From the IMG/VR virus record IMGVR_UViG_3300046656_000389, positions 1 to 38,754 of that record: a stretch of 38,754 nt of DNA. One strand, 5' to 3'. Shown in pieces: positions 6,052 to 38,754 of the stretch. This DNA comes from a virus. Position 1 is the stretch's first letter. Each line of letters begins with the position of its first letter. The position numbers were made by a program, and so were the translations under genes. A model generated the notes under the pieces. It had not been told where the DNA came from. It saw only the letters and a list, made by a program, of their open reading frames with translations, and made no database searches.

Positions 6052-7459
6052 GCTCGCCCGCCGGCGTGAGGATGCCGCGGCCCGCGCCAGCAACGCGGCG
6101 CCGCGGCTCGCGTTCATCGAAGCGCTGCACCCACTGCAGCGCGCCTTCGTGGCGGACAAGTCCCGGCAGAAGGCGGCGCTCTGCGGCCGGCGCTCGGGCA
6201 AGTCCTACGGCATCGCGGCGTGGCTGCTCGAGGGCGGGTATACCGACCCCGGCGGCCTGAGCGTCTACATCGCGCGCAGCAAGGGCGACGCCCGCATGAT
6301 CCTTTGGCCCGACGTGCTCGAGCCGATGGGGCAGCGCTTCAATCTCGGGCTGCGCCTGCGCGAAGTGGACAACCAGCTCATGGTTTGCCTGCCGAACGGG
6401 CACCGCATCTGGCTCGCGGGCTGCAAGGACGTTTCCGAGGTCGGCAAGTTCCGAGGCAAAAAGTACCGGCGTGCGTGCGTCGACGAGGCGCAGGAGCTGC
6501 CGTTCCTCGGGACCCTGATCGACGACTCGCTGCAGTGGGCGCTCATCGACAAGAAGGGCGAGCTTTGCGTGGCCGGCACCCCGAGCCCGGTGCCCGCAGG
6601 GTACTTCTACACCGCGACGACGGGGGACGGCGGCACGGCATGGCCAACGCACAGCTGGACGATTCTCGACAATCCCCACATTCCGGACGCCGCGGCCGAG
6701 CTCGATGGCATGCGGAAGCGGCACGGCTGGGACGAGTCGCACCCGAGCTACCTGCGTGAAGCGATGGCGAAATGGGTGCGTGACGAGGGGGCGCTTGTTT
6801 ACCCCTACGACGGCGAGCGAAACGCCTGGGACGGGGAGCTACTCGAGGGCTCGGAGTACATCTGGGCGCTCGGCGTCGACGTCGGGTACGCGGACTCGAC
6901 GGCGTTCGTGGTGGCGTGCTGCCGAAAGCGGCACCCGGAAGTCTTCATCGTCGAGGCCTGGAAGCGCGCCGGGCTCATCCCGAGCGCCGTCGCCGCGCAC
7001 GTAGAGCGGCTGCGCAAGGATCACCCGATCGGCATGGTCGTGGTCGACGAGGGTGGGATCGGCAAGGGCTACGCCGAGGAGATGCGGAAAACCTACGGCG
7101 TGCCGTGCCAGCCGGCCGAGAAGACGCGTAAGCGCGCGTACCAAGAGCTCACGGCCGGCGAGCTCCGCGCGGGCAGCGTGAAGATCAACCCCCGCACCAG
7201 CCGGGACCTCATCGACGAGCTCGCCCTCTTGCAGTGGGCGCCCGACCGCGCCGCGGAGGACGACCGGTTCGAGAACCATGCGGCCGACGCGTTCCTGTAC
7301 GTCACCCGCGCTCTCCGTCCCTGGTACCGCCCAGAGCTCGAGCCGCCGAAGCCAGGGACGCCCGAGCACCTGGCCGCCGAGCACACCAAGGCCCGCAAGG
7401 ACGCGCAGAAGGCCGCCCGGGAGCGCTCCCGCCGCATCGGGTACCGATCCGCCGCCTGA
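6017..7459 (+). CDS. terL: Terminase large subunit
   Basis: This 480-residue packaging motor pumps DNA into the prohead through the portal and cuts the concatemer. The ATPase domain has Walker A GRRSGKS (57-63), the following RSKGDARMILW strand, and Walker B ACVDEAQ (153-159, D156 and E157). A C-motif-like VAGTPSP is near 185-191. The RNase H-like nuclease domain has D288 in GVDVGYADSTAF, D344 in VVVDEGG and D424 in NHAADAF. The C-terminus is basic. ATG 6017 was chosen because the conserved LHPLQRAF adaptor region starts soon after it; the longer upstream frame overlaps the previous gene. Length is typical for a podovirus. Confidence 0.93.
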   Translation: MPLLPAKTLLAELARRREDAAARASNAAPRLAFIEALHPLQRAFVADKSRQKAALCGRRSGKSYGIAAWLLEGGYTDPGGLSVYIARSKGDARMILWPDVLEPMGQRFNLGLRLREVDNQLMVCLPNGHRIWLAGCKDVSEVGKFRGKKYRRACVDEAQELPFLGTLIDDSLQWALIDKKGELCVAGTPSPVPAGYFYTATTGDGGTAWPTHSWTILDNPHIPDAAAELDGMRKRHGWDESHPSYLREAMAKWVRDEGALVYPYDGERNAWDGELLEGSEYIWALGVDVGYADSTAFVVACCRKRHPEVFIVEAWKRAGLIPSAVAAHVERLRKDHPIGMVVVDEGGIGKGYAEEMRKTYGVPCQPAEKTRKRAYQELTAGELRAGSVKINPRTSRDLIDELALLQWAPDRAAEDDRFENHAADAFLYVTRALRPWYRPELEPPKPGTPEHLAAEHTKARKDAQKAARERSRRIGYRSAA

Positions 7460-7517: not shown

Positions 7518-9422
7518 GTGTCGATCCCTGAACCGGACCGATGGCATCGGCTGCCCCCTGACCAACAGGGTAAGTCGGTATGCGACATCGCCGACAAGCT
7601 GTGGGACGACGCGGGGACGTGGCGCGATCGGCTGCTCGAGTTTTCGAGCTGGTATGAGGGCTTCCAGATCCTCTCGCTCGACGCTGGCGCGTACCAGGCT
7701 CACGCGCGCCTGAGCGAGAAGGACCAGTTTGACCACGTCACCTGGAACGTGCCCCGCGCGCTCGTGCAGTCGCTCACGGCCAAGGTCGCCGGGCGGCAGC
7801 GGCCGAAGCCGCAGTTCGTCTGCACCGACACCGACTGGGTGACGAAGCGCCGCGCCAAGCGGCTCGAGCGGTTCGCAGAGGCCACGCTTTACCAGCCGCA
7901 GGGGCAATACCGCGACGCCTGGGAGCTCGGCACCCGGATGTTCGTGGACTCCTGCGTCTGGGGCATGGGCGTGATCAAGGCGTACGCCGATACCGTCGGC
8001 TTGCGCATCGCCGACGAGCGCTGCTTCCCGTGGGAGATCTTGGTGGACCCGCTCGAGGCCGAGCGCGGCATGCCGCTGAATCTGTTCCACCGGTACCACT
8101 ACGACAAGGACCGGTTGATCGCGGCCTTCCCCGACAAGAAGGACGAGATCAACAGCGCCCGGGACGAAGAGAAGAATAGGAAGCAGTACTCGTCCCACCT
8201 GCGCGTCGCACGGCAATGCCTGGTGCGAGAGGCTTGGCGCCTGCCGCTCGGCGACGACGACAAGGGCCGGCACGTCATCGCCATCAACGGCAAAACGCTG
8301 CTCTCCGAGGAGTGGACGCGAGACGAATTCCCGTTCCTCTTCCTGCGCTACGCGCCGCACCTGATGGGCTTCGGCAGCACCTCGCTCGTCGAGGAAGCCT
8401 TGCCGACCGCACGCGAGATGAACGCGTCACTCTCGCGCATGGCCGAGGGCGAGCGGAAGCTCGCGGCCGGCGCCATCGCGTTCGAAGAGGGTAGCGTCGA
8501 TGACACGGCCCTGGCCGACAACAAGATCGGCGCGCTCATCCCGGTCAAGCCCGGCTCGCAAATGCCGCAGGTGTTCCAGCCCCAAGGGTTCTCGGAATCC
8601 ACCATGAGCTGGATGAAGATGCAGTGGGACAAGTCGTTCGAGCTCCCAGGCATCTCGCAAATGGGCGCCACGAGCCGCAAGGAGCCGGGGCTCACCGCCG
8701 GCATTGCGCTTCGCACGGTGGCGCAAATGGAAACCGAGCGGTTCTCGGTGATTTATGGCGCTTACGAGCAGTCGCTCGCGGTGGATCTCACGCGGCACCA
8801 CATTGCCTGCGCGCGCGAGGTGGCCGAGGCCAACAGCGGCAAGTTTTCGCTGCGCTGGCCGGGCGGGCGCTTCCTAAACGAGATCGATTGGGGCGACGCG
8901 AGTCTGGAAGAGGACAAGTACGTCCTGCAGAGCCACGCCGTGTCGGGCCTGGTGAACACCCCCGCCGACCGGCTGCAGCTCGGCCAAGATCTCTTCAACT
9001 CCGGCACCATCAGCCAAGACGCGTTCCTCAGAATCACCCAGCTCAAAGACGTCGACGGCGAACTGAAGGTCAAGAACGTGCAGCACGAGCTCGTCGAGCA
9101 CTACGTCGAGAGCTGGCTCGAGGCGACGCCCGAGGACGAGGAGGACGGGAAGTTCCGCTACCGCCCGCCGGTGCCCTTCATGAACCACGCCGAAGCGATC
9201 GTGCAGGTGGCGACCGCTTACCTGCAGTCAGAGCTCGACGGCTGCCCCGACTGGAACCTGCAGCACTTCACCAACTTCATCACCCAGTGTGACGCGCTCA
9301 TCCAAAAGGCCGTCGCCGCGCAGCAAACCCCGCCCCCAGCGCCCGCTCCCGTGCTCCCCGGCGCGCCTGCTGGTGCCCCCATGCCCCCGCCGAGCGGCGG
9401 GCCCTCGCAGATGTTGAACTGA
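7518..9422 (+). CDS. Portal protein
   Basis: GTG 7518 gives 634 residues. The portal forms the dodecameric ring at the capsid vertex through which DNA passes and to which adaptor and tail attach. Support includes its position between terminase and scaffold and its length. Portal-like features are the helical N-terminus with W-rich SSWYEGF, the WNVPRALVQSLTAKVAGRQRPKP segment, WGMGVIKAY, WEILVDP, and the long helical stem region with MNASLSRMAEGERK and SQMGATSRKEP. The C-terminal tail is rich in Pro and Ala (QTPPPAPAPVLPGAPAG), as in many podovirus portals. It stops one base before the scaffold start. Confidence 0.87.
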   Translation: MSIPEPDRWHRLPPDQQGKSVCDIADKLWDDAGTWRDRLLEFSSWYEGFQILSLDAGAYQAHARLSEKDQFDHVTWNVPRALVQSLTAKVAGRQRPKPQFVCTDTDWVTKRRAKRLERFAEATLYQPQGQYRDAWELGTRMFVDSCVWGMGVIKAYADTVGLRIADERCFPWEILVDPLEAERGMPLNLFHRYHYDKDRLIAAFPDKKDEINSARDEEKNRKQYSSHLRVARQCLVREAWRLPLGDDDKGRHVIAINGKTLLSEEWTRDEFPFLFLRYAPHLMGFGSTSLVEEALPTAREMNASLSRMAEGERKLAAGAIAFEEGSVDDTALADNKIGALIPVKPGSQMPQVFQPQGFSESTMSWMKMQWDKSFELPGISQMGATSRKEPGLTAGIALRTVAQMETERFSVIYGAYEQSLAVDLTRHHIACAREVAEANSGKFSLRWPGGRFLNEIDWGDASLEEDKYVLQSHAVSGLVNTPADRLQLGQDLFNSGTISQDAFLRITQLKDVDGELKVKNVQHELVEHYVESWLEATPEDEEDGKFRYRPPVPFMNHAEAIVQVATAYLQSELDGCPDWNLQHFTNFITQCDALIQKAVAAQQTPPPAPAPVLPGAPAGAPMPPPSGGPSQMLN

Positions 9423-18183: not shown

Positions 18184-20102
18184 TGGGTGTTTTCGACGCA
18201 TTTACCGGTGGATTGGTTGGGGCAAGCCCATTCGGGGAGGGCAAGGTCCTGGGGCCACAGCACCCAGTCGGAGGCGATGAGGCTCGCCCTGGCCGCGAGG
18301 TCGATCCGCTCACCGGCGAGCGTGCCGAGGAGCACCGCGACGACTTCCTCTATGGCGGCTACCAGGGCGGCGCGCAGGACTTCAACGCGCAGACGCAGGG
18401 CATCGCGAGCGGCTACGGCCAGCAGATGCAGGGCGTGGGGCAGGCCTACGGTGGGCAGTTCCAAAACAACGCGCAGCAGTACGGCAACGACCTCGGCAAC
18501 CTCGGGCACGGGCAGTACGGCGAGGGCACGGCCCTCACCTCGATGGGCAGAGACACGCTCGGGAACGTCGACGCCAACGCCTACGTCGATCCGAACTCCC
18601 TTTACCAGTCGAACCAGGCCGCCGCGAACATGGGCGGGCAGGCCGCGTCGATGGACGTCGCTGCCGGGCAGCTGTTGAACATGGACTTTAGTGGCCCTTC
18701 GGTCGCGGAGGCGCAGCTGAACGCGGGGGCGCAGCAGACCGCGAATCAGAACCTTGCCCTTGCGCAGTCCGGGCGCGGCATGGGCGGCGGCGCCGCGGCA
18801 CGGCGCGCGGCGATGCGACAGAACGCGCAGGTCATGGGCGAGACGAACGCCCAGGCGGCAGGGCTCCGCGCGAACGAGGCCGCGACGCAGCGCGCCCAGA
18901 AGATGCAGGCAGTGCAGGCCGGCGGCCAGATGTACGGAGCGGCGGGAAGCCTGTACGGCCAGCAAGCGGGCGTCGGGTCGCAGAACCTCGGCACCCTCGC
19001 TGGCGCGCGTCAAGGCGCCGTGTCGGACGCGAACCAATTGGGACTCGGTCTGACCAATACCGGTGTGGGGGCGATGCAAGCGGGCGCGAACACGGCCGCG
19101 GCCGGCGCCAATGCGCAGACGAACGCGCTGCAGGCAGGGGCCAACACCCAGCTCGGCGCGCTCCAAGGCGGCGCGAGCACCGAGCTCGGCGGGCAGCAGC
19201 TCTCCAATCAAACGAACACTGCCGCGCTCGGTGGCACCATGGGATTCGAAGCGGACATGACGGGACGTCGTGGCCAAACGCTGCATGCGCAAGAGGTCAA
19301 TCAGCAGAATCAAAAAGAGAACCAAGCTGCTTCAGTGGGGCTCGTGGGCGAGGTGCTCGGCGGCATCGTGAGCGATCGCACGGCCAAGACAGACGTGAAG
19401 CGTATTCCGGTCGATGCACGCATCTTTGGCGGCGGGTCCGGTGCGCAGGGGTCCGAGGCTTCCCGCTTCGCCGATGCGCTTACCGGTTGGAAGCGCAGCA
19501 TGGGCATGGCCGAGGACAAGCCGGTGGGTGAAACCGGATATACGCAGTTTGCGCGCACTCTTGCGCGCCGTGAGCCATCGGGCGTCCGCGCGGAGCACGC
19601 CGCAGCCGCTGCGCGCGCGGGTGGGAACGAGCGTGTCAGCGCCACGCCCTATGGCGGCCCGACCGAAGCTGAGTACCAGGCTGCGCGTGCCTGGTCTCAG
19701 CCCGCATCGAGCTATGGCGGCGTGGACATCGCGGCGCTCGACGAGGCGAACCGACGCGCGCGCTCGAACTACGGCGCGAGCTCGCCGAGCCCCGAGGCCG
19801 CTTCGCACGCCATCGACCAGGCGAACCCCTACACGTTCGACTACAAGGACCCCGAGCGACACGGGGAGGGGCGCCGGCTCGGCGTCATGGCGCAGGATCT
19901 CGAGAAGACGCCCGCCGGATCTGAGGCCGTCATGCGCGCTCCCGACGGCACGCGGATGATCAGCGATCCGGAGCTCACGACGATCAACACCGCCGCCCTG
20001 CACAACCAGCAGGAGCAGCTCGACGACCTGAAGAAGAAGCTCGGCATCGACTACGAGGGGCTCGATAGCGCGTACGCACGGGAGGCCTCGGGATGGCGGT
20101 AG
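18183..20102 (+). CDS. Internal virion/ejection-like protein with S74-like C-terminal domain
   Basis: ATG 18183 (GTG 18180 possible) gives 639 residues. Residues about 30-395 are low-complexity Gln/Gly/Ala/Asn with repeats such as AQTNALQAGANTQLGALQGGA, consistent with an internal or tail protein. The C-terminal part begins VSDRTAKTDVKRI (Ser397) and later has NPYTFDYKDPERHGEGRRLGVMAQDLEKTP. This matches the peptidase_S74 or intramolecular chaperone pattern (SDR..K..I..I, Y.F.YK, G..AQ.LE..P). S74 domains help fibres trimerise and cut themselves off at a Ser-Asp bond. Two more long internal-type genes follow. An ejection protein and a tail fibre are both possible. Confidence 0.65.
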   Translation: MGVFDAFTGGLVGASPFGEGKVLGPQHPVGGDEARPGREVDPLTGERAEEHRDDFLYGGYQGGAQDFNAQTQGIASGYGQQMQGVGQAYGGQFQNNAQQYGNDLGNLGHGQYGEGTALTSMGRDTLGNVDANAYVDPNSLYQSNQAAANMGGQAASMDVAAGQLLNMDFSGPSVAEAQLNAGAQQTANQNLALAQSGRGMGGGAAARRAAMRQNAQVMGETNAQAAGLRANEAATQRAQKMQAVQAGGQMYGAAGSLYGQQAGVGSQNLGTLAGARQGAVSDANQLGLGLTNTGVGAMQAGANTAAAGANAQTNALQAGANTQLGALQGGASTELGGQQLSNQTNTAALGGTMGFEADMTGRRGQTLHAQEVNQQNQKENQAASVGLVGEVLGGIVSDRTAKTDVKRIPVDARIFGGGSGAQGSEASRFADALTGWKRSMGMAEDKPVGETGYTQFARTLARREPSGVRAEHAAAAARAGGNERVSATPYGGPTEAEYQAARAWSQPASSYGGVDIAALDEANRRARSNYGASSPSPEAASHAIDQANPYTFDYKDPERHGEGRRLGVMAQDLEKTPAGSEAVMRAPDGTRMISDPELTTINTAALHNQQEQLDDLKKKLGIDYEGLDSAYAREASGWR

Positions 20103-25031: not shown

Positions 25032-25247
25032 ATGAATTCGACCCTCGCGAAAACCCTTCTCACCGTCGCCGCCGGCGCGCTCGGCGCCTTGGCGCTCGTC
25101 CCACAGTTCACGCCGTTCGCGTCGGCCATCACGACTTTCTCCGGGCTCCTGCTCGGCATCGCGCACGGCAAGCGGCCCGGTGACATCACCGCGGCCGACG
25201 TCGAGCAGCTCAAAGCCGCGCTCGCGAAGTACGAGGGCGGCCGATGA
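25032..25247 (+). CDS. Holin-like membrane protein
   Basis: AGGAAAG precedes ATG 25032 in an 18-base gap, giving 71 residues. Two hydrophobic segments are separated by a short turn: LLTVAAGALGALALV (9-23) and FASAITTFSGLLLGIAHG (29-46). A charged helical tail follows (DITAADVEQLKAALAKYEGG). Small size, two membrane spans and a charged C-terminus beside an endolysin fit a class II holin, which would open the inner membrane at lysis. The protein could instead be a pinholin or another small membrane protein. Confidence 0.65.
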   Translation: MNSTLAKTLLTVAAGALGALALVPQFTPFASAITTFSGLLLGIAHGKRPGDITAADVEQLKAALAKYEGGR

Positions 25248-25561: not shown

Positions 25562-26397
25562 TGAGACCTCTCCCCGAATACCGCGCCCTGGCCGTCGAGC
25601 TCGTGGAGTACGCCTGCGGCTACGGCCAGGGGCGCCCCGAGCCCGATCCGGTGTACCGAGCGGTCACCGAGGACCGGGATCTAGGCGCCGCGCAGCGGAG
25701 CTACAGCTCCTGTGCCGACCTCGCCCACTGGCTCTTCTGCCGGCTCGGCGTGCGCTCGCACTGGGTGAACCGCGCCGAGCACCGAGGCTTCACGCCCGGC
25801 GCGGGCGTCTGGCGGCTCGCGGGCGAGGCGCCGCACGTGGCGGACCCTCCGCCGGTCGAGCGCTTCAAGGCCGGGGACGTGGGCATCATCTGGGGCAAGC
25901 CGGACACCACCGACGCCCACGTGCTCGTGGTGCTCGACGACCAGCAGCCGCGGGGGATCTTCGTCGGCGAGTACGGGCAGCCCGGCGGCCACCTGGCGAC
26001 GCGGGTCACCGGCTACCACGGCGCGCTCATCAACGTCGGTACCCGGGCGCTCCGGCGCGTCCTGCCGCTCGAGCGCGTGCTCGCCATGGCGGACGAGTTC
26101 GGCGAGCTCGAGGAGCCCGAGACGGCCCTGGCCTACGCCCAGCGCCGCGGGCTGCCCCTGCCGCTCGGCGCCGAGCCCTCGGTCCCCCACGTGCCCCCGC
26201 TGCAGCCGCTCGCGACCCTGCGCGTGGGTGCCACCGGCGACGGCGTACGCCGGCTGCAGGAGGCGCTGCTCATCATCGTGGACGGGAAGTTTGGGGCGCA
26301 GACGAAAGCCGCTGTGGTCGCCTTCCAGGCGTCGCACGGCCTGGCGCCCGATGGTGTCGTCGGCCCGGCCACCTGGCGGGCCCTGGGGGTCGCATGA
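25561..26397 (+). CDS. Endolysin: NlpC/P60 or CHAP-like peptidase plus peptidoglycan-binding domain
   Basis: This 278-residue protein starts with ATG 25561. The catalytic part has SSCADLAHWLFCRLG, with C51 at the start of a helix, and TDAHVLVVLDD, with H120, a Cys/His arrangement of NlpC/P60 or CHAP amidase/endopeptidases. FKAGDVGIIWG before the His resembles the usual GDV strand. Residues about 218-277 (LRVGATGDGVRRLQEALL...DGKFGAQTKAAVVAFQASHGL...DGVVGPATWRAL) are a clear PG_binding_1 domain. The enzyme would cut peptidoglycan after holin release. There is no signal peptide, so holin-dependent export is expected. Confidence 0.85.
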   Translation: MRPLPEYRALAVELVEYACGYGQGRPEPDPVYRAVTEDRDLGAAQRSYSSCADLAHWLFCRLGVRSHWVNRAEHRGFTPGAGVWRLAGEAPHVADPPPVERFKAGDVGIIWGKPDTTDAHVLVVLDDQQPRGIFVGEYGQPGGHLATRVTGYHGALINVGTRALRRVLPLERVLAMADEFGELEEPETALAYAQRRGLPLPLGAEPSVPHVPPLQPLATLRVGATGDGVRRLQEALLIIVDGKFGAQTKAAVVAFQASHGLAPDGVVGPATWRALGVA

Positions 26398-33916: not shown

Positions 33917-34252
33917 CTACCGAGCGCCCGCGCGCCTCTCCACGGGGCGGATCCCCAGGCGTGCCCACCGGGCCTCGTCCTCGGCCATCAGCCGCGCCCG
34001 GCGCTCCTGCCACGCGGCGCGCTGCCGCTGGTACTCGGGCGAGGCCTCGCGGGCCGCCTGCTCTGCCGCGCGCCGCTCGTCGGCCTCGCGGGTCAGCTCG
34101 GGGTTCGCCTCGACGCAGAACGAGCAAAGCCCGTCGTCACGGTCGGCCGTCTCTTCCTCGCAGTGCGAGCAGAGCGCGATCGGATCGGGGTCGTACTCCC
34201 GCTCGATTCCGTCGGCGCATTCGTAGATGCCGTTTCCCAGGTGGCGTGCCAT
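33917..34252 (-). CDS. First leftward gene, zinc-ribbon-like protein
   Basis: ATG at 34252 gives 111 residues. The N-terminus is GNGIYECADG, followed by two CxxC pairs (C28, C31 and C43, C46) that form a small zinc ribbon. The C-terminal half is charged and helical (ADERRAAEQAAREASPEYQRQRAAWQERRARL). Its place directly after the leftward promoter matches lambda N, so a regulator is possible, but no RNA-binding or antitermination motif is evident. The usual ribosome site is absent: a GGGGG block touches the ATG too closely. Confidence 0.6.
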   Translation of the reverse strand: MARHLGNGIYECADGIEREYDPDPIALCSHCEEETADRDDGLCSFCVEANPELTREADERRAAEQAAREASPEYQRQRAAWQERRARLMAEDEARWARLGIRPVERRAGAR

Positions 34253-34259
34253 GCCCCCA

Positions 34260-34296
34260 GTCGTATTGTCTTTAGACAGCACTGTCAAGAGACAAT
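34260..34296 (-). promoter_or_regulatory. Leftward early promoter with two operator half-sites (PL/OL-like)
   Basis: On the minus strand TTGACA (34288-34283), a 17-base spacer and TACGAC (34265-34260) form a -35/-10 pair; the -10 matches only partly. Two TGTC-N4-GACA operator half-sites lie at 34267-34278 and 34283-34294, 16 bp apart, covering the -35 and spacer. A repressor bound here would block transcription. The predicted start (about 34253) is next to ATG 34252. Confidence 0.65.
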
Positions 34297-34317
34297 CGAC
34301 CGGGCACCACACAAACC

Positions 34318-34334
34318 GCCCCGACGGGTGGGGC
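34318..34334 (-). terminator. Candidate terminator of the immunity operon
   Basis: On the minus strand GCCCC pairs with GGGGC across a seven-base loop, overlapping the stop of the zinc-ribbon membrane gene. GGTTTGTGT follows. The stem is short but all G-C, and the following bases are only weakly T-rich. It would stop transcription of the repressor operon before the leftward operators. Confidence 0.4.
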
Positions 34335-34645
34335 TAGACCCTACGGAGCAGCCACCAGAGGAGAGGCAAGGCCACACACGCGGCGAGCGTGTGCAGGGGA
34401 GCGAAGGCGATGCCGCCCAAGAAGGCGGCCATGAGCACCAACCGAATTGACCAGGTGATGGTGCGGTCTACTCGGTCGACGCGTTCGGCAAGGGTCTCAG
34501 GCCGCGCAACGGGTGCGGGATGGCGCGCGGGCGATTCCGGTGCGCGGAGTTCATCAAAGCCATCGTCGCTGTACCCGCAGTCGGTGCAGCGGTCGCGCCA
34601 CGGTTCGTAGAAGGTTCCGCACCGAAGGCATCGGGTGGCGGCCAT
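34334..34645 (-). CDS. Membrane protein with N-terminal zinc ribbon, immunity region
   Basis: ATG at 34645 begins two bases after the repressor stop, so the two are probably co-transcribed. The 103-residue product has C6-x2-C9 and C20-x2-C23 in a zinc ribbon (CLRCGTFYEPWRDRCTDCG), a linker, and two hydrophobic spans (about 65-81 and 84-100). Being expressed with the repressor, it may act in the lysogen, for example in superinfection exclusion. That is inference from position. No homologous family was recognised. Confidence 0.6.
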   Translation of the reverse strand: MAATRCLRCGTFYEPWRDRCTDCGYSDDGFDELRAPESPARHPAPVARPETLAERVDRVDRTITWSIRLVLMAAFLGGIAFAPLHTLAACVALPLLWWLLRRV

Positions 34646-34647
34646 GG

Positions 34648-35028
34648 TCAGGGTCGCGAGGAGCTGCGGATATTGGATTCCGGCAGGGGAGTGGGCGCGT
34701 CACGCGCAACGCTGGCGCCGCCGCTCAGGCCCGAGGGCTCCTCGCCGGTGAGCAGCCAAACCGGTCTCACCCTGAGGGCATGGGCGAGCAGGATCACGGT
34801 GTTCGCCGTGACGCCCTGCGCCTTTGTGCCGTCGAGTATCTTGGTGAGGTTGCCCCCGTTCATGTCGGCCGCCTCGGCGATGGCGTTTTGCGTGAGGTCG
34901 GGCTGCTCCCGCTGGCGCGTGCCCACCGCGAAGCGTAGCCGCTCGGGGAAGCCGGCCCACTCGGCCGTAGAGCGCCGCTGGCGTTTGCCCTTGCTGGCTG
35001 CCATTCGATGCGCGAATCCCCGATCCAT
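34648..35028 (-). CDS. XRE-family repressor, cI-like, without peptidase domain
   Basis: ATG at 35028 gives 126 residues; ATG at 35004 is an alternative. The helix-turn-helix domain covers about residues 30-95 (TQNAIAEAADMNGGNLTKILDGTKAQ, then TVILLAHALRVRPVWLLTGE), typical of cI/Cro-type regulators. The C-terminus is a short polar tail with no S24 self-cleaving peptidase domain, so induction through RecA would need another route. The gene lies between two matching operator pairs and faces the Cro-like gene, the classic immunity layout. It is the best candidate for the repressor of the TGTC-N4-GACA sites. Confidence 0.8.
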   Translation of the reverse strand: MDRGFAHRMAASKGKRQRRSTAEWAGFPERLRFAVGTRQREQPDLTQNAIAEAADMNGGNLTKILDGTKAQGVTANTVILLAHALRVRPVWLLTGEEPSGLSGGASVARDAPTPLPESNIRSSSRP

Positions 35029-35054
35029 TCAGGGCGCGCAAGGGCCGGTGAGAT

Positions 35055-35089
35055 TGTCTATTGACAGCATTGTCTAAAGACAGTAAGCC
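35055..35089 (+). promoter_or_regulatory. Rightward early promoter with two operator half-sites (PR/OR-like)
   Basis: TTGACA (35061-35066), a 17-base spacer and TAAGCC (35084-35089) form a -35/-10 pair with a weak -10. TGTC-N4-GACA half-sites lie at 35055-35066 and 35071-35082, 16 bp apart. Over 39 bp the unit is identical at 31 positions to the leftward unit at 34260-34296 read on the opposite strand. The predicted start is close to ATG 35099. Confidence 0.65.
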
Positions 35090-35098
35090 TTGCGGACG

Positions 35099-35311
35099 AT
35101 GAACCGCGGTGCCGTGGCTACCAAAGCAGCCTTCGAGGCCGAGGGACTCACGCAGAACGGGGCAGCTCGAGCGGTGCAGTGCGACTCAGGCAATTGGAGC
35201 AAGATCCTTTCGGGGAAGAAGCTCCCAGGTCGTGAGCTCACGCTGCGCATCGCCAAGCGTTTCAAGGTGCGGGGCGAACTTTGGGGCGAATCGGCGAAGG
35301 GGGCAGCGTGA
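35099..35311 (+). CDS. Cro-like XRE-family regulator
   Basis: ATG 35099 gives 70 residues; TTG 35090 would add three. The helix-turn-helix (LTQNGAARAVQCDSGNWSKILSGKKLPGRELTLRIAKRF) fills most of the protein, as in Cro. It lies just after the rightward promoter and diverges from the repressor gene. It probably binds the same operators and favours lytic growth, by analogy with lambda. No ribosome site is seen before the ATG, in line with a leaderless start. Confidence 0.75.
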   Translation: MNRGAVATKAAFEAEGLTQNGAARAVQCDSGNWSKILSGKKLPGRELTLRIAKRFKVRGELWGESAKGAA

Positions 35312-35920: not shown

Positions 35921-36177
35921 GCGACGTGCCCCGCCGGCAGCTGGTCGAGCTCGACCCGGCTACGGCCCGCGTCGCGAGCATGCTCACGAAGCTGGTCGGC
36001 CCGACGCGCGCGGTCGTCGAGCGGTTCGAGATGACGGACCCCGAAGGCCGTGTGCTCCACGCGACCACGGCCGAGCTACACGAGGTGCTCGAGAACCTGC
36101 GCGGCCACTCGAGCGAGGAGCCCGAGGCCCTGCTCGCCCGGTTCGCCAAGCGCATGCGGGAGGCGTTTCGCCCGTGA
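35917..36177 (+). CDS. Hypothetical early protein
   Basis: GTG 35917 overlaps the preceding stop, giving 86 residues. The sequence is mostly helical with a charged end (ELHEVLENLRGHSSEEPEALLARFAKRMREAFRP). No family is recognised. Its end lies 16 bases before the integrase start. Confidence 0.5.
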   Translation: MSDVPRRQLVELDPATARVASMLTKLVGPTRAVVERFEMTDPEGRVLHATTAELHEVLENLRGHSSEEPEALLARFAKRMREAFRP

Positions 36178-36193
36178 AAGGCGAGCGGCTATC

Positions 36194-37489
36194 ATGCGAC
36201 CCTTGCCCAAGCGCGACGGCCTCTATCTGCGCGGCGCCATCTGGTGGATGCGGAAGGACCCCATCACGGGCCGCGAAGCCTCGACCCGTTGTCGCGACCT
36301 GGCCGCAGCTCGCCTCGTACGGGCTTCCCGGGAGCGCGCCGCCGCCGATCCGGCACACGCAACCGCGCAAGCCGCGACACTCACCACCGAGTGCCGCCGG
36401 CTCCTCGACGCCCGCCGTGCCATCGGCAAGGCCGCCAGCTTCCACGAGCAGAAGCTCGGGCACTGGGCGCGCCTGCTCGGTGACGACTTCCCGATCCTCC
36501 GAATCGACCCCGACGCCTTCGATCGCTTCGTCGCCGCGCGCCGTGCGGAAGGCGTCACCGACCACACGATCGGCAAGGAGATCGGGTGCATGCTGACCGT
36601 GCTGCGCCTCTCCAAGCGCGCGGGCGTCTACAAGGGCGATCTCGGCATCCTGCGCCCGCCGTGGCTCCCGAAGGGCTACGTGCCCCGCACCCGCGCGCTG
36701 GGCGCCCCTGAGCTCGCCGCGCTGCTCGCCGAGCTCACGCCCCAGCGGTGGGCCTTCGTCGCCCTGGTCGTGGGCCTCGGGCTCCGTCGCGGCGAGGTGC
36801 TCGCGCTCTCGCCCGTCGACGTCGACCTCGAGCTCGGCGTCGTGAACGTGGCCGGCACCAAGACGGTCGGCGCCCGCCGCGTGGTGCCCATCCTCGCGCC
36901 CTTCCGCCTGCTGGTGGAGAAAGCCGCGGGGTTCCTGCCGCTCGACGGCTGGGCTCGGTCCAAGGGCAACTACCTGCGGGACCTGAAGACTGCCTGCCGC
37001 CGGGCGAAGATCGAGCCCGTCTCCGCGAACGACCTACGCCGGACCCACGCGACCCTGCTCCGGCAGGCCGGTGTCGACCGCGACGTGGCGCGCCGGCTGC
37101 TCGGTCACACGCCGGGCTCGGTGCTGCTCGAGGTCGTCTACGACAAGCCCACTCCGGCGCAGCTCGTCGAGCGCGCGGGCGATCTCACCACACTGACGCG
37201 ACAATTGGGGTCGCCGCCCGAGCCCCGTGCTCACGATCTGCGGCGCGCCCGGAAGGATTCGAACCTTCGACCTACGGCTCCGGAGGCCCCGCGTGATCTC
37301 GAATCCGTCGAGGTTTTCGCTGAAGTCCTGGCGCCAGAGACGCTCAGCGCGTCTCCGCGCGACACAGTAACGCGACACTCGCCCGCCGCCCATGCCCTGG
37401 CGTTCGCTGCCGCCCGGGTGCTCGGCCGCCGCGTCCACTGGGTGACCGTGGTCGCCGTCCACGACGGCAAGGCGGTGCGGCGTGGGTAA
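36194..37489 (+). CDS. int: Tyrosine integrase containing attP in its 3' part
   Basis: ATG 36194 gives 431 residues. The core-binding domain is at about 60-150. The catalytic domain has R198 in GLGLRRGE, K223 (TKT), R282 in NDLRRTHAT (the first His of HxxR is Asn279), H305 in LLGHT and Y316 in VVYDK. This is the Arg-Lys-His-Arg-His-Tyr set with one change. The segment read after residue 350 comes from a tRNA-Arg-like sequence on the other strand (RRARKDSNLRPTAPEAP), so it is not a normal protein domain. Recombination there would replace about the last 80 residues without touching the active site. It integrates and excises the phage. Confidence 0.88.
   Translation: MRPLPKRDGLYLRGAIWWMRKDPITGREASTRCRDLAAARLVRASRERAAADPAHATAQAATLTTECRRLLDARRAIGKAASFHEQKLGHWARLLGDDFPILRIDPDAFDRFVAARRAEGVTDHTIGKEIGCMLTVLRLSKRAGVYKGDLGILRPPWLPKGYVPRTRALGAPELAALLAELTPQRWAFVALVVGLGLRRGEVLALSPVDVDLELGVVNVAGTKTVGARRVVPILAPFRLLVEKAAGFLPLDGWARSKGNYLRDLKTACRRAKIEPVSANDLRRTHATLLRQAGVDRDVARRLLGHTPGSVLLEVVYDKPTPAQLVERAGDLTTLTRQLGSPPEPRAHDLRRARKDSNLRPTAPEAPRDLESVEVFAEVLAPETLSASPRDTVTRHSPAAHALAFAAARVLGRRVHWVTVVAVHDGKAVRRG
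37243..37285 (-). other. attP: Candidate attP core: 3' half of a tRNA-Arg(CCG)-like sequence
   Basis: On the minus strand the sequence reads an anticodon loop CTCCGGA (37285-37279), a T-arm GAAGG-TTCGAAT-CCTTC (37268-37252) and an acceptor-like CGGGCGC followed by G and CC (37251-37242). This matches from memory the 3' half of E. coli-type tRNA-Arg(CCG). There is no matching 5' half in the window. Integration at such a site would restore the host tRNA gene. The core lies inside the integrase gene. Confidence 0.75.
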
Positions 37490-38246: not shown

Positions 38247-38754
38247 GCACGTTCAAGAAAGGAACGGGGAAGCAGAAAAGGATCGAGAGGCTCACCCGTG
38301 AGCAGGAGGCCGCGATGGCGGGCTACGCCCAGGAGTGGATCGCCCGCGGGCTCTCGACGGCTCCCGCGGAACGCGCGGTGGTGGAGCAGGGCATCCGTGA
38401 ATGCTACCGGCTCGCGAAGCTCGAGCCGCCGAAGGCCATCGTTTGGGTGTCCTCGCCGGTCGTGGGCGCGCTCGCCGCTCCGGCGGCGGCCTTCACGCTC
38501 GAGCTCACCCGGCGTCTGCGAGCTCAGCAGATCATCACGCGCGACACCGTGGGCGCCACCGTGGACGCCACCGTGGGCGCCACCGTGGGCGCCACCGTGG
38601 ACGCCACCGTGGGCGCCACCGTGGACGCCACCGTGGGCGCCACCGTGGGCGCCACCGTGGACGCCACCGTGCGCGACACCGTGGACGCCACCGTGGGCGA
38701 CACCGTGGACGCCACCGTGCGCGACACCGTGGGCGCCACCGTGCGCGCCACCGT
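38243..38754 (+). CDS. DUF6745-like repeat protein, N-terminal part
   Basis: GTG 38243 overlaps the preceding stop (GTGA). About 100 residues of a globular N-domain (QEAAMAGYAQEWIARGLSTAPAERAVV, then RECYRLAKLEPPKAIVWVSSPVVGALA) precede the array. From memory this matches the beginning of DUF6745 proteins (EWI..GLST.PA.R, IVWV.SP). The frame then enters the 12-bp repeats at 38543 and is still open at the last base of the window. Joining to position 1 completes a codon and continues the same frame into the C-terminal part at 1-937. Confidence 0.8.
   Translation, partial: MSTFKKGTGKQKRIERLTREQEAAMAGYAQEWIARGLSTAPAERAVVEQGIRECYRLAKLEPPKAIVWVSSPVVGALAAPAAAFTLELTRRLRAQQIITRDTVGATVDATVGATVGATVDATVGATVDATVGATVGATVDATVRDTVDATVGDTVDATVRDTVGATVRAT
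38543..38754 (+). repeat. 12-bp tandem array, left part (17 full units)
   Basis: Seventeen complete 12-bp units of form GNC-ACC-GTG-NNC, then a partial unit at the window edge. Linking dipeptides are GA (7), DA (6), RD (2), GD (1) and RA (1); HD, present in the right part, is absent here. The minus strand is also open through this array and would encode a TV-rich peptide too. The array is continuous with 1-250 in the circular molecule. Confidence 0.95.

Follow-up and report, generated by a model that had tools for sequence, protein, structure and literature searches.

A pair of matched, outward-facing operator-promoter units flanking a short repressor gene in the uncultured virus record IMGVR_UViG_3300046656_000389 (IMG/VR) is very probably a lysis-lysogeny switch of the lambda type (PL/OL-PR/OR), with two operators per unit and a repressor devoid of the CI/LexA peptidase domain. 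The stretch analysed, referred to here as the window, covers positions 1 to 38,754 of the record (38,754 nt, or 38.75 kb). The preliminary description had proposed a lambda OL/OR-like switch; the order PL/OL, accessory gene, repressor, PR/OR, cro and, further on, integrase agrees with it and recurs in four other lineages. As in lambda, the repressor and Cro-like HTH genes are divergent, with operators and PR between them, and a matched outward OL/PL set lies beyond the repressor gene. The three operators per lambda set are replaced by two exact sites per unit, and in the 118-aa repressor Pfam detects no CI C-terminal S24/LexA-like cleavage and oligomerization domain. The switch is a variant working like that of lambda, not a lambdoid one in the strict sense.

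The left, OL/PL-like unit (TGTCTCTTGACAGTGCTGTCTAAAGACA) occupies positions 34267-34294 on the minus strand. Its operator O1 (34283-34294) overlaps the -35 element TTGACA (34283-34288), and O2 (34267-34278) lies within the spacer leading to the putative -10 element TACGAC (34260-34265), 17 bp from the -35; this -10 is weak, and the relatives have stronger ones at the same place. The right, OR/PR-like unit (TGTCTATTGACAGCATTGTCTAAAGACA) at 35055-35082 on the plus strand is built in the same way, with O1 (35055-35066) overlapping TTGACA (35061-35066), O2 (35071-35082) in the spacer, and the putative -10 TAAGCC (35084-35089) again 17 bp away, where G001, a relative described below, has TAATAC. 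Both units read outward, each consists of two exact TGTC-N4-GACA sites with centres 16 bp apart, and both are conserved in relatives. The promoter elements, the weak -10s and the tandem sites of the preliminary description are all borne out. Its wording of "two half-sites per operator instead of three" has to be corrected: there are two operators per unit, and each operator has two half-sites.

These four sites are the only exact copies of TGTC-N4-GACA in the whole window. Second-order Markov simulations gave a mean of 0.16 exact sites per window and a maximum of 3, with tandems in 0 of 400, so that the restriction of the sites to the two units is far above chance. Aligned outward, the units are identical at 30-32 of 39 positions in any register, the best registers giving 31 or 32, in line with the 31 of 39 counted earlier. 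A repeat search lists them first among the repeats of the last 8.7 kb, as a 44-nt inverted repeat of 80% identity (34254-34297 and 35052-35095). Both -10s are weak, and a consensus promoter scan of the window called neither promoter. Since an ATG follows only 7 nt past the left and 9 nt past the right predicted -10, the PL-like and PR-like early transcripts should be nearly leaderless, beginning no more than about 3 nt from the AUG, provided that the hexamers mark the promoters. The window contains no evident repressor promoter (PRM) and no evident third operator.

The genes between the units are those named in the preliminary description, a repressor and a membrane protein. The repressor gene (34648-35004, minus strand) encodes an HTH protein of 118 aa matching the PHROG transcriptional repressors at 8e-8 and Pfam HTH_19 at 3e-5, the latter below the Pfam cut-off; S24, the CI/LexA peptidase domain, has no Pfam match in it. 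The solved folds nearest to its structure model include P22 c2, the lambda CI N-domain and 434 Cro, all as weak matches (E about 0.01), and residues 90-117 are mostly modelled with low confidence. The membrane protein gene (34334-34645, minus strand; 103 aa) encodes a zinc-ribbon-like CxxC...CxxC motif and a hydrophobic stretch of 40 C-terminal residues. Because it takes the position of lambda rexAB, has no counterpart in G001 or G008 and gives way to a small lipoprotein-like ORF in G025, it is, on gene content, an accessory gene outside the conserved core. A terminator-like hairpin (34318-34334, minus strand), a consensus match only, lies after this gene and before the left unit; one such hairpin was found against 1.5 expected, which is not above chance by count.

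Outside the units, the first gene of the left operon (33917-34252, minus strand) has its ATG 7 nt past the left -10 and is predicted to be leaderless, as is the gene of the Cro-like HTH protein (35099-35311, plus strand; Pfam HTH_31, above the cut-off), 9 nt past the right -10. The repressor HMM retrieves the Cro-like protein with an E of 2e-7 and the reverse search also gives a match. Their recognition helices are identical at 6-7 of 11 residues, both in the window phage and in G001; those of G008 share 5 of 11, a different residue set. By these matches, the repressor and the Cro-like protein can be considered paralogous HTH proteins.

Downstream of cro, on the plus strand, lies a tyrosine integrase gene (36174-37489, the start being approximate; Pfam PF00589 and PHROG integrase at 8e-32 on the frame 36050-37489). 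Its 3' end holds the 3' half of a tRNA-Arg(CCG)-like sequence (37245-37294, minus strand), which is likely the attP core; ARAGORN found no complete tRNA there. An integrase gene with such an end indicates that the phage is temperate. Its host is probably a G+C-rich bacterium. It is also worth mentioning that the record ends (38540-38754) in short tandem repeats, GTGGACGCCACCGTGGGC..., which would read VDATVGATV in frame; similar repeats, read as VDARVSDRV, are found at the end of the G017 record (L209, about 19400-19800).

Relatives with the same operators were sought in a blind scan of the 2.9 million viral contigs of IMG/VR with the pattern TGTC-N4-GACA-N4-TGTC-N4-GACA. It yielded 11 records, including two independent phages with the layout of the window; a scan with a tighter operator pattern brought no additional phage of this layout. 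G001 (IMGVR_UViG_3300005577_000052) encodes a repressor 54% and a Cro 46% identical to those of the window. Its units lie at 25191-25218 and 25664-25691, the second with one mismatch, and their -10s, TAGATT and TAATAC, are followed by ATGs 8-9 nt on. G025 (IMGVR_UViG_3300047319_000592, with a second copy, G026) has the same layout and very different HTH proteins, too divergent to be retrieved by the profile derived from the window. The order is mirrored: a Cro-like HTH gene is followed by a unit, the HTH repressor gene, the lipoprotein-like ORF and an outward unit with one mismatch, and the integrase is on the Cro side. Candidate degenerate third operators, absent from the window, are present by the repressor start in G001 (TGTCAATCGTCA) and G025 (TGTCGAACGGCA); from their sequences, a role as third operators is suggestive only.

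Terminase relatives carrying an integrase were also fetched for comparison, a terminase being encoded in the window, and they present the same frame with other operators. The longest inverted repeat of G008 and G024 has 36-nt arms that are 100% identical (ATGCTAGTTGACATGGGATGCTAGGTGACATAGCTT), around about 0.4 kb in G008. Each arm holds two ATGCTA-N2-TGACAT operators 17 bp apart and a TTGACA-17-TAGCTT promoter followed at about 7-11 nt by an ATG; a Cro-like gene (Pfam HTH_3) starts from one of the units, and the two units enclose an HTH repressor gene. In G017 the operators of the pair are of the GTAAC-N2-GTTAC type and 18 bp apart; the promoters are TTGCGT-17-TAATAC/TAAGAG, with an ATG 7 nt on, and the arms are 72% identical. 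The first left-operon genes of G008 (L060, 2690-2887) and G017 (L061, 5003-5200) look homologous, sharing an AIRAVLE motif, despite the differing operators.

Sequences upstream of start codons were compared in about 40 stretches of relatives, with a threshold of 25 identities in 32 positions and inward pairs as a control. Ten outward pairs reached it, against none of 197,515 inward ones; 7 of the 10, counting duplicate records and alternative starts, are switch units and 3 are the dispersed promoter of G019/G020. G001 and G017, with scores of 23 and 22, fall within the background of this comparison and are supported by their operators and gene context. In all ten switch units the -35 is TTGACA or TTGCGT, the spacer measures 17 bp and the ATG comes about 7-11 nt past the -10. 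Matched outward units around an HTH repressor gene recur in four other lineages, two of which were found by the operator pattern alone, and the units are 0.44-0.89 kb apart in the relatives. As far as sequences tell, the geometry is constant while the operator sequence and the HTH proteins vary, as in heteroimmune phages.

Other searches and matches added no further switch. A genome scan with the repressor alignment revealed no relative, and the phage and plasmid collections contained no close relative of the repressor or the terminase. A genome scan with the terminase retrieved a single contig, L068 (31.7 kb, 51% identity), from an Aurantimicrobium MAG; the contig is likely a misbinned phage and was not taken as evidence of the host. 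A looser operator scan gave many matches, which were checked by PWM. Among them, L072, L077, L108, L181, L090, L112, L177, L179, L185 and L166 were discarded as having no HTH context or lying within coding sequence. L067 was set aside as an ordinary LexA-type repressor, L003 as an unrelated tandem array of many copies, and L009 and G019/G020 as dispersed promoter repeats. In L009, a different phage, same-strand repeated promoters (7259-7286 and 8033-8054; TTGACAT-N2-ATGTCAACCGACACCATATCT) precede several small genes, with no HTH gene between them. In G019/G020 (L224, about 8340-9130) the dispersed copies read CTTTTCCCCTTGAG...GATCGT. In the phage family of L072 (2567), L077 (4804), L108 (3370) and L181 (753), TTGACAGNNNTGTCTTTAGACAGTAG promoters stand where a long, putatively structural gene ends, and a small hydrophobic protein has its ATG about 10 nt past the promoter, which looks like a late one.

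These dispersed repeats raise the question of whether the two units are simply copies of a strong early promoter with no switching role, since in G019/G020 and L009 such copies do occur and one of them gives an outward pair. The window, however, has two copies and no more, one on either side of the repressor gene and each holding two palindromes, and the HTH-gene context common to five lineages is absent from G019/G020 and L009, which makes this explanation extremely unlikely. That the inverted pair serves as a substrate of site-specific recombination, delimiting an invertible segment with the repressor gene, is barely credible: an inverted repeat of 44 nt and 80% identity, and the perfect 36-nt one around about 0.4 kb in G008, would suit such a role, but the arms are composed of -35 and -10 elements and tandem palindromes and end by start codons, their identity drops to 72% in G017, and the repressor keeps one orientation towards cro in 5 of 5 lineages.

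A host regulator, LexA-like or other, could also bind the units and control both early promoters, leaving the phage HTH proteins to act elsewhere. The size of the palindromes fits host regulators as well, and with a repressor lacking its own cleavage domain a host signal must enter somewhere. We nevertheless consider this very unlikely, as the exact sites are confined to the immunity region and the operator sequence varies between related phages together with the HTH genes, as expected of phage-encoded recognition; moreover, we know of no LexA box with the sequence of the TGTC-N4-GACA unit.

In the lambda-type switch preferred here, the PL-like and PR-like promoters would share a 28-bp regulatory unit of two palindromic operators of 12-14 bp. 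The inner half-site of O1 is part of the -35 and O2 fills the spacer; judging from these positions, a bound dimer would exclude RNA polymerase. In the lysogen the short HTH repressor would shut both outward promoters, while the Cro-like paralogue expressed from PR would read the repressor's sites and favour lytic growth. As the two proteins are paralogous with similar recognition helices, both may read both units; the Cro of phiKO2 reads just one repressor operator (PMC4997575), and by this precedent the Cro-like protein of the window phage may not read every site. Both early mRNAs are predicted to begin at, or almost at, the AUG.

The repressor might also bridge the units by looping the roughly 0.8 kb of DNA between them, though this step is a weak one. 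In the three phages of the TGTC class the centres of the paired units are 788, 473 and 893 bp apart, each distance exceeding an integral number of helical turns (10.5 bp each) by 0.5 bp, a coincidence with a post hoc P of about 0.003-0.005. The spacing of 442 bp in G008 is near whole-turn phase and that of 751 bp in G017 is off phase; because G017 breaks the pattern, the phasing hints at looping in a suggestive way only.

The 28-bp unit can also be read as four TGTC half-sites in alternating orientation, one every 8 bp, with O1 and O2 on opposite sides of the helix at a distance of 16 bp, about 1.5 turns. Across the six units of the TGTC class, conservation is higher in a central dyad, GACAG-YR-CTGTC (middle G-Y-R-C/T), than in the N4 of O2, and the dimers could therefore bind in a register other than O1 plus O2. 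It is conceivable, if rather unlikely, that the repressor and Cro use mutually exclusive registers, two dimers on O1 and O2 versus one on the central dyad; the decision would then be made by register and not by three graded sites, with the units phased for looping in the absence of a CI-type C-terminal domain.

The lambda switch is the textbook bistable circuit, in which the roles of the third operator, of the cleavable, oligomerizing repressor and of the loop are still being studied. The uncultured phage group described here keeps the two-sided layout with just two operators on each side, a short repressor lacking a cleavage domain and near-leaderless early genes, and its members offer natural minimal versions in which the contribution of each of these three components can be tested. 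For lambda, the stability and the dynamics of the loop are reported to be better with two sets of three operators than with two sets of two (PMC5880393), and this makes it worthwhile to test a switch that is two-plus-two by nature. The group also presents several classes of operator, likely corresponding to heteroimmunity, on one fixed frame.

The lambda immunity region is arranged as OL/PL-rexBA-cI-OR/PR-cro, with three operators per set and about 2.3 kb between the sets. The window shares with it the gene order, the outward PL and PR, the matched operator sets, an accessory gene in the rex position and the combination of an HTH repressor with Cro. It differs in having two operators per unit, 16 bp apart, instead of three, units separated by 0.8 kb (0.44-0.89 kb in the relatives) and not by about 2.3 kb, a short repressor that lacks the S24/LexA-type domain, predicted leaderless transcripts from PL and PR, and no evident PRM or OR3. 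The repressors P22 c2 and 434, whose folds are among the nearest, though weak, matches of the repressor model (E about 0.01), possess the C-terminal oligomerization/cleavage domain that the window repressor is missing. The nearest precedent is provided by N15 and phiKO2, with three operators at OR, two at OL and a CB repressor lacking the residues for self-cleavage (PMC4997575); the absent cleavage domain and the two OL sites of the window fit this arrangement. PY54 has leaderless cI and cro mRNAs (PMC4488713), comparable with the predicted leaderless transcripts of the window. In contrast to the two OR sites of the window, the telomere phages have three OR operators (one in PY54) of the T-A-N10-T-A type, the OL of the N15-type immB controls the plasmid replication gene repA, and the prophages of N15, phiKO2 and PY54 are linear plasmids, whereas that of the window phage is integrated. 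The lambda-type layout is thus already known; what differs here is the number of operators and the short repressor.
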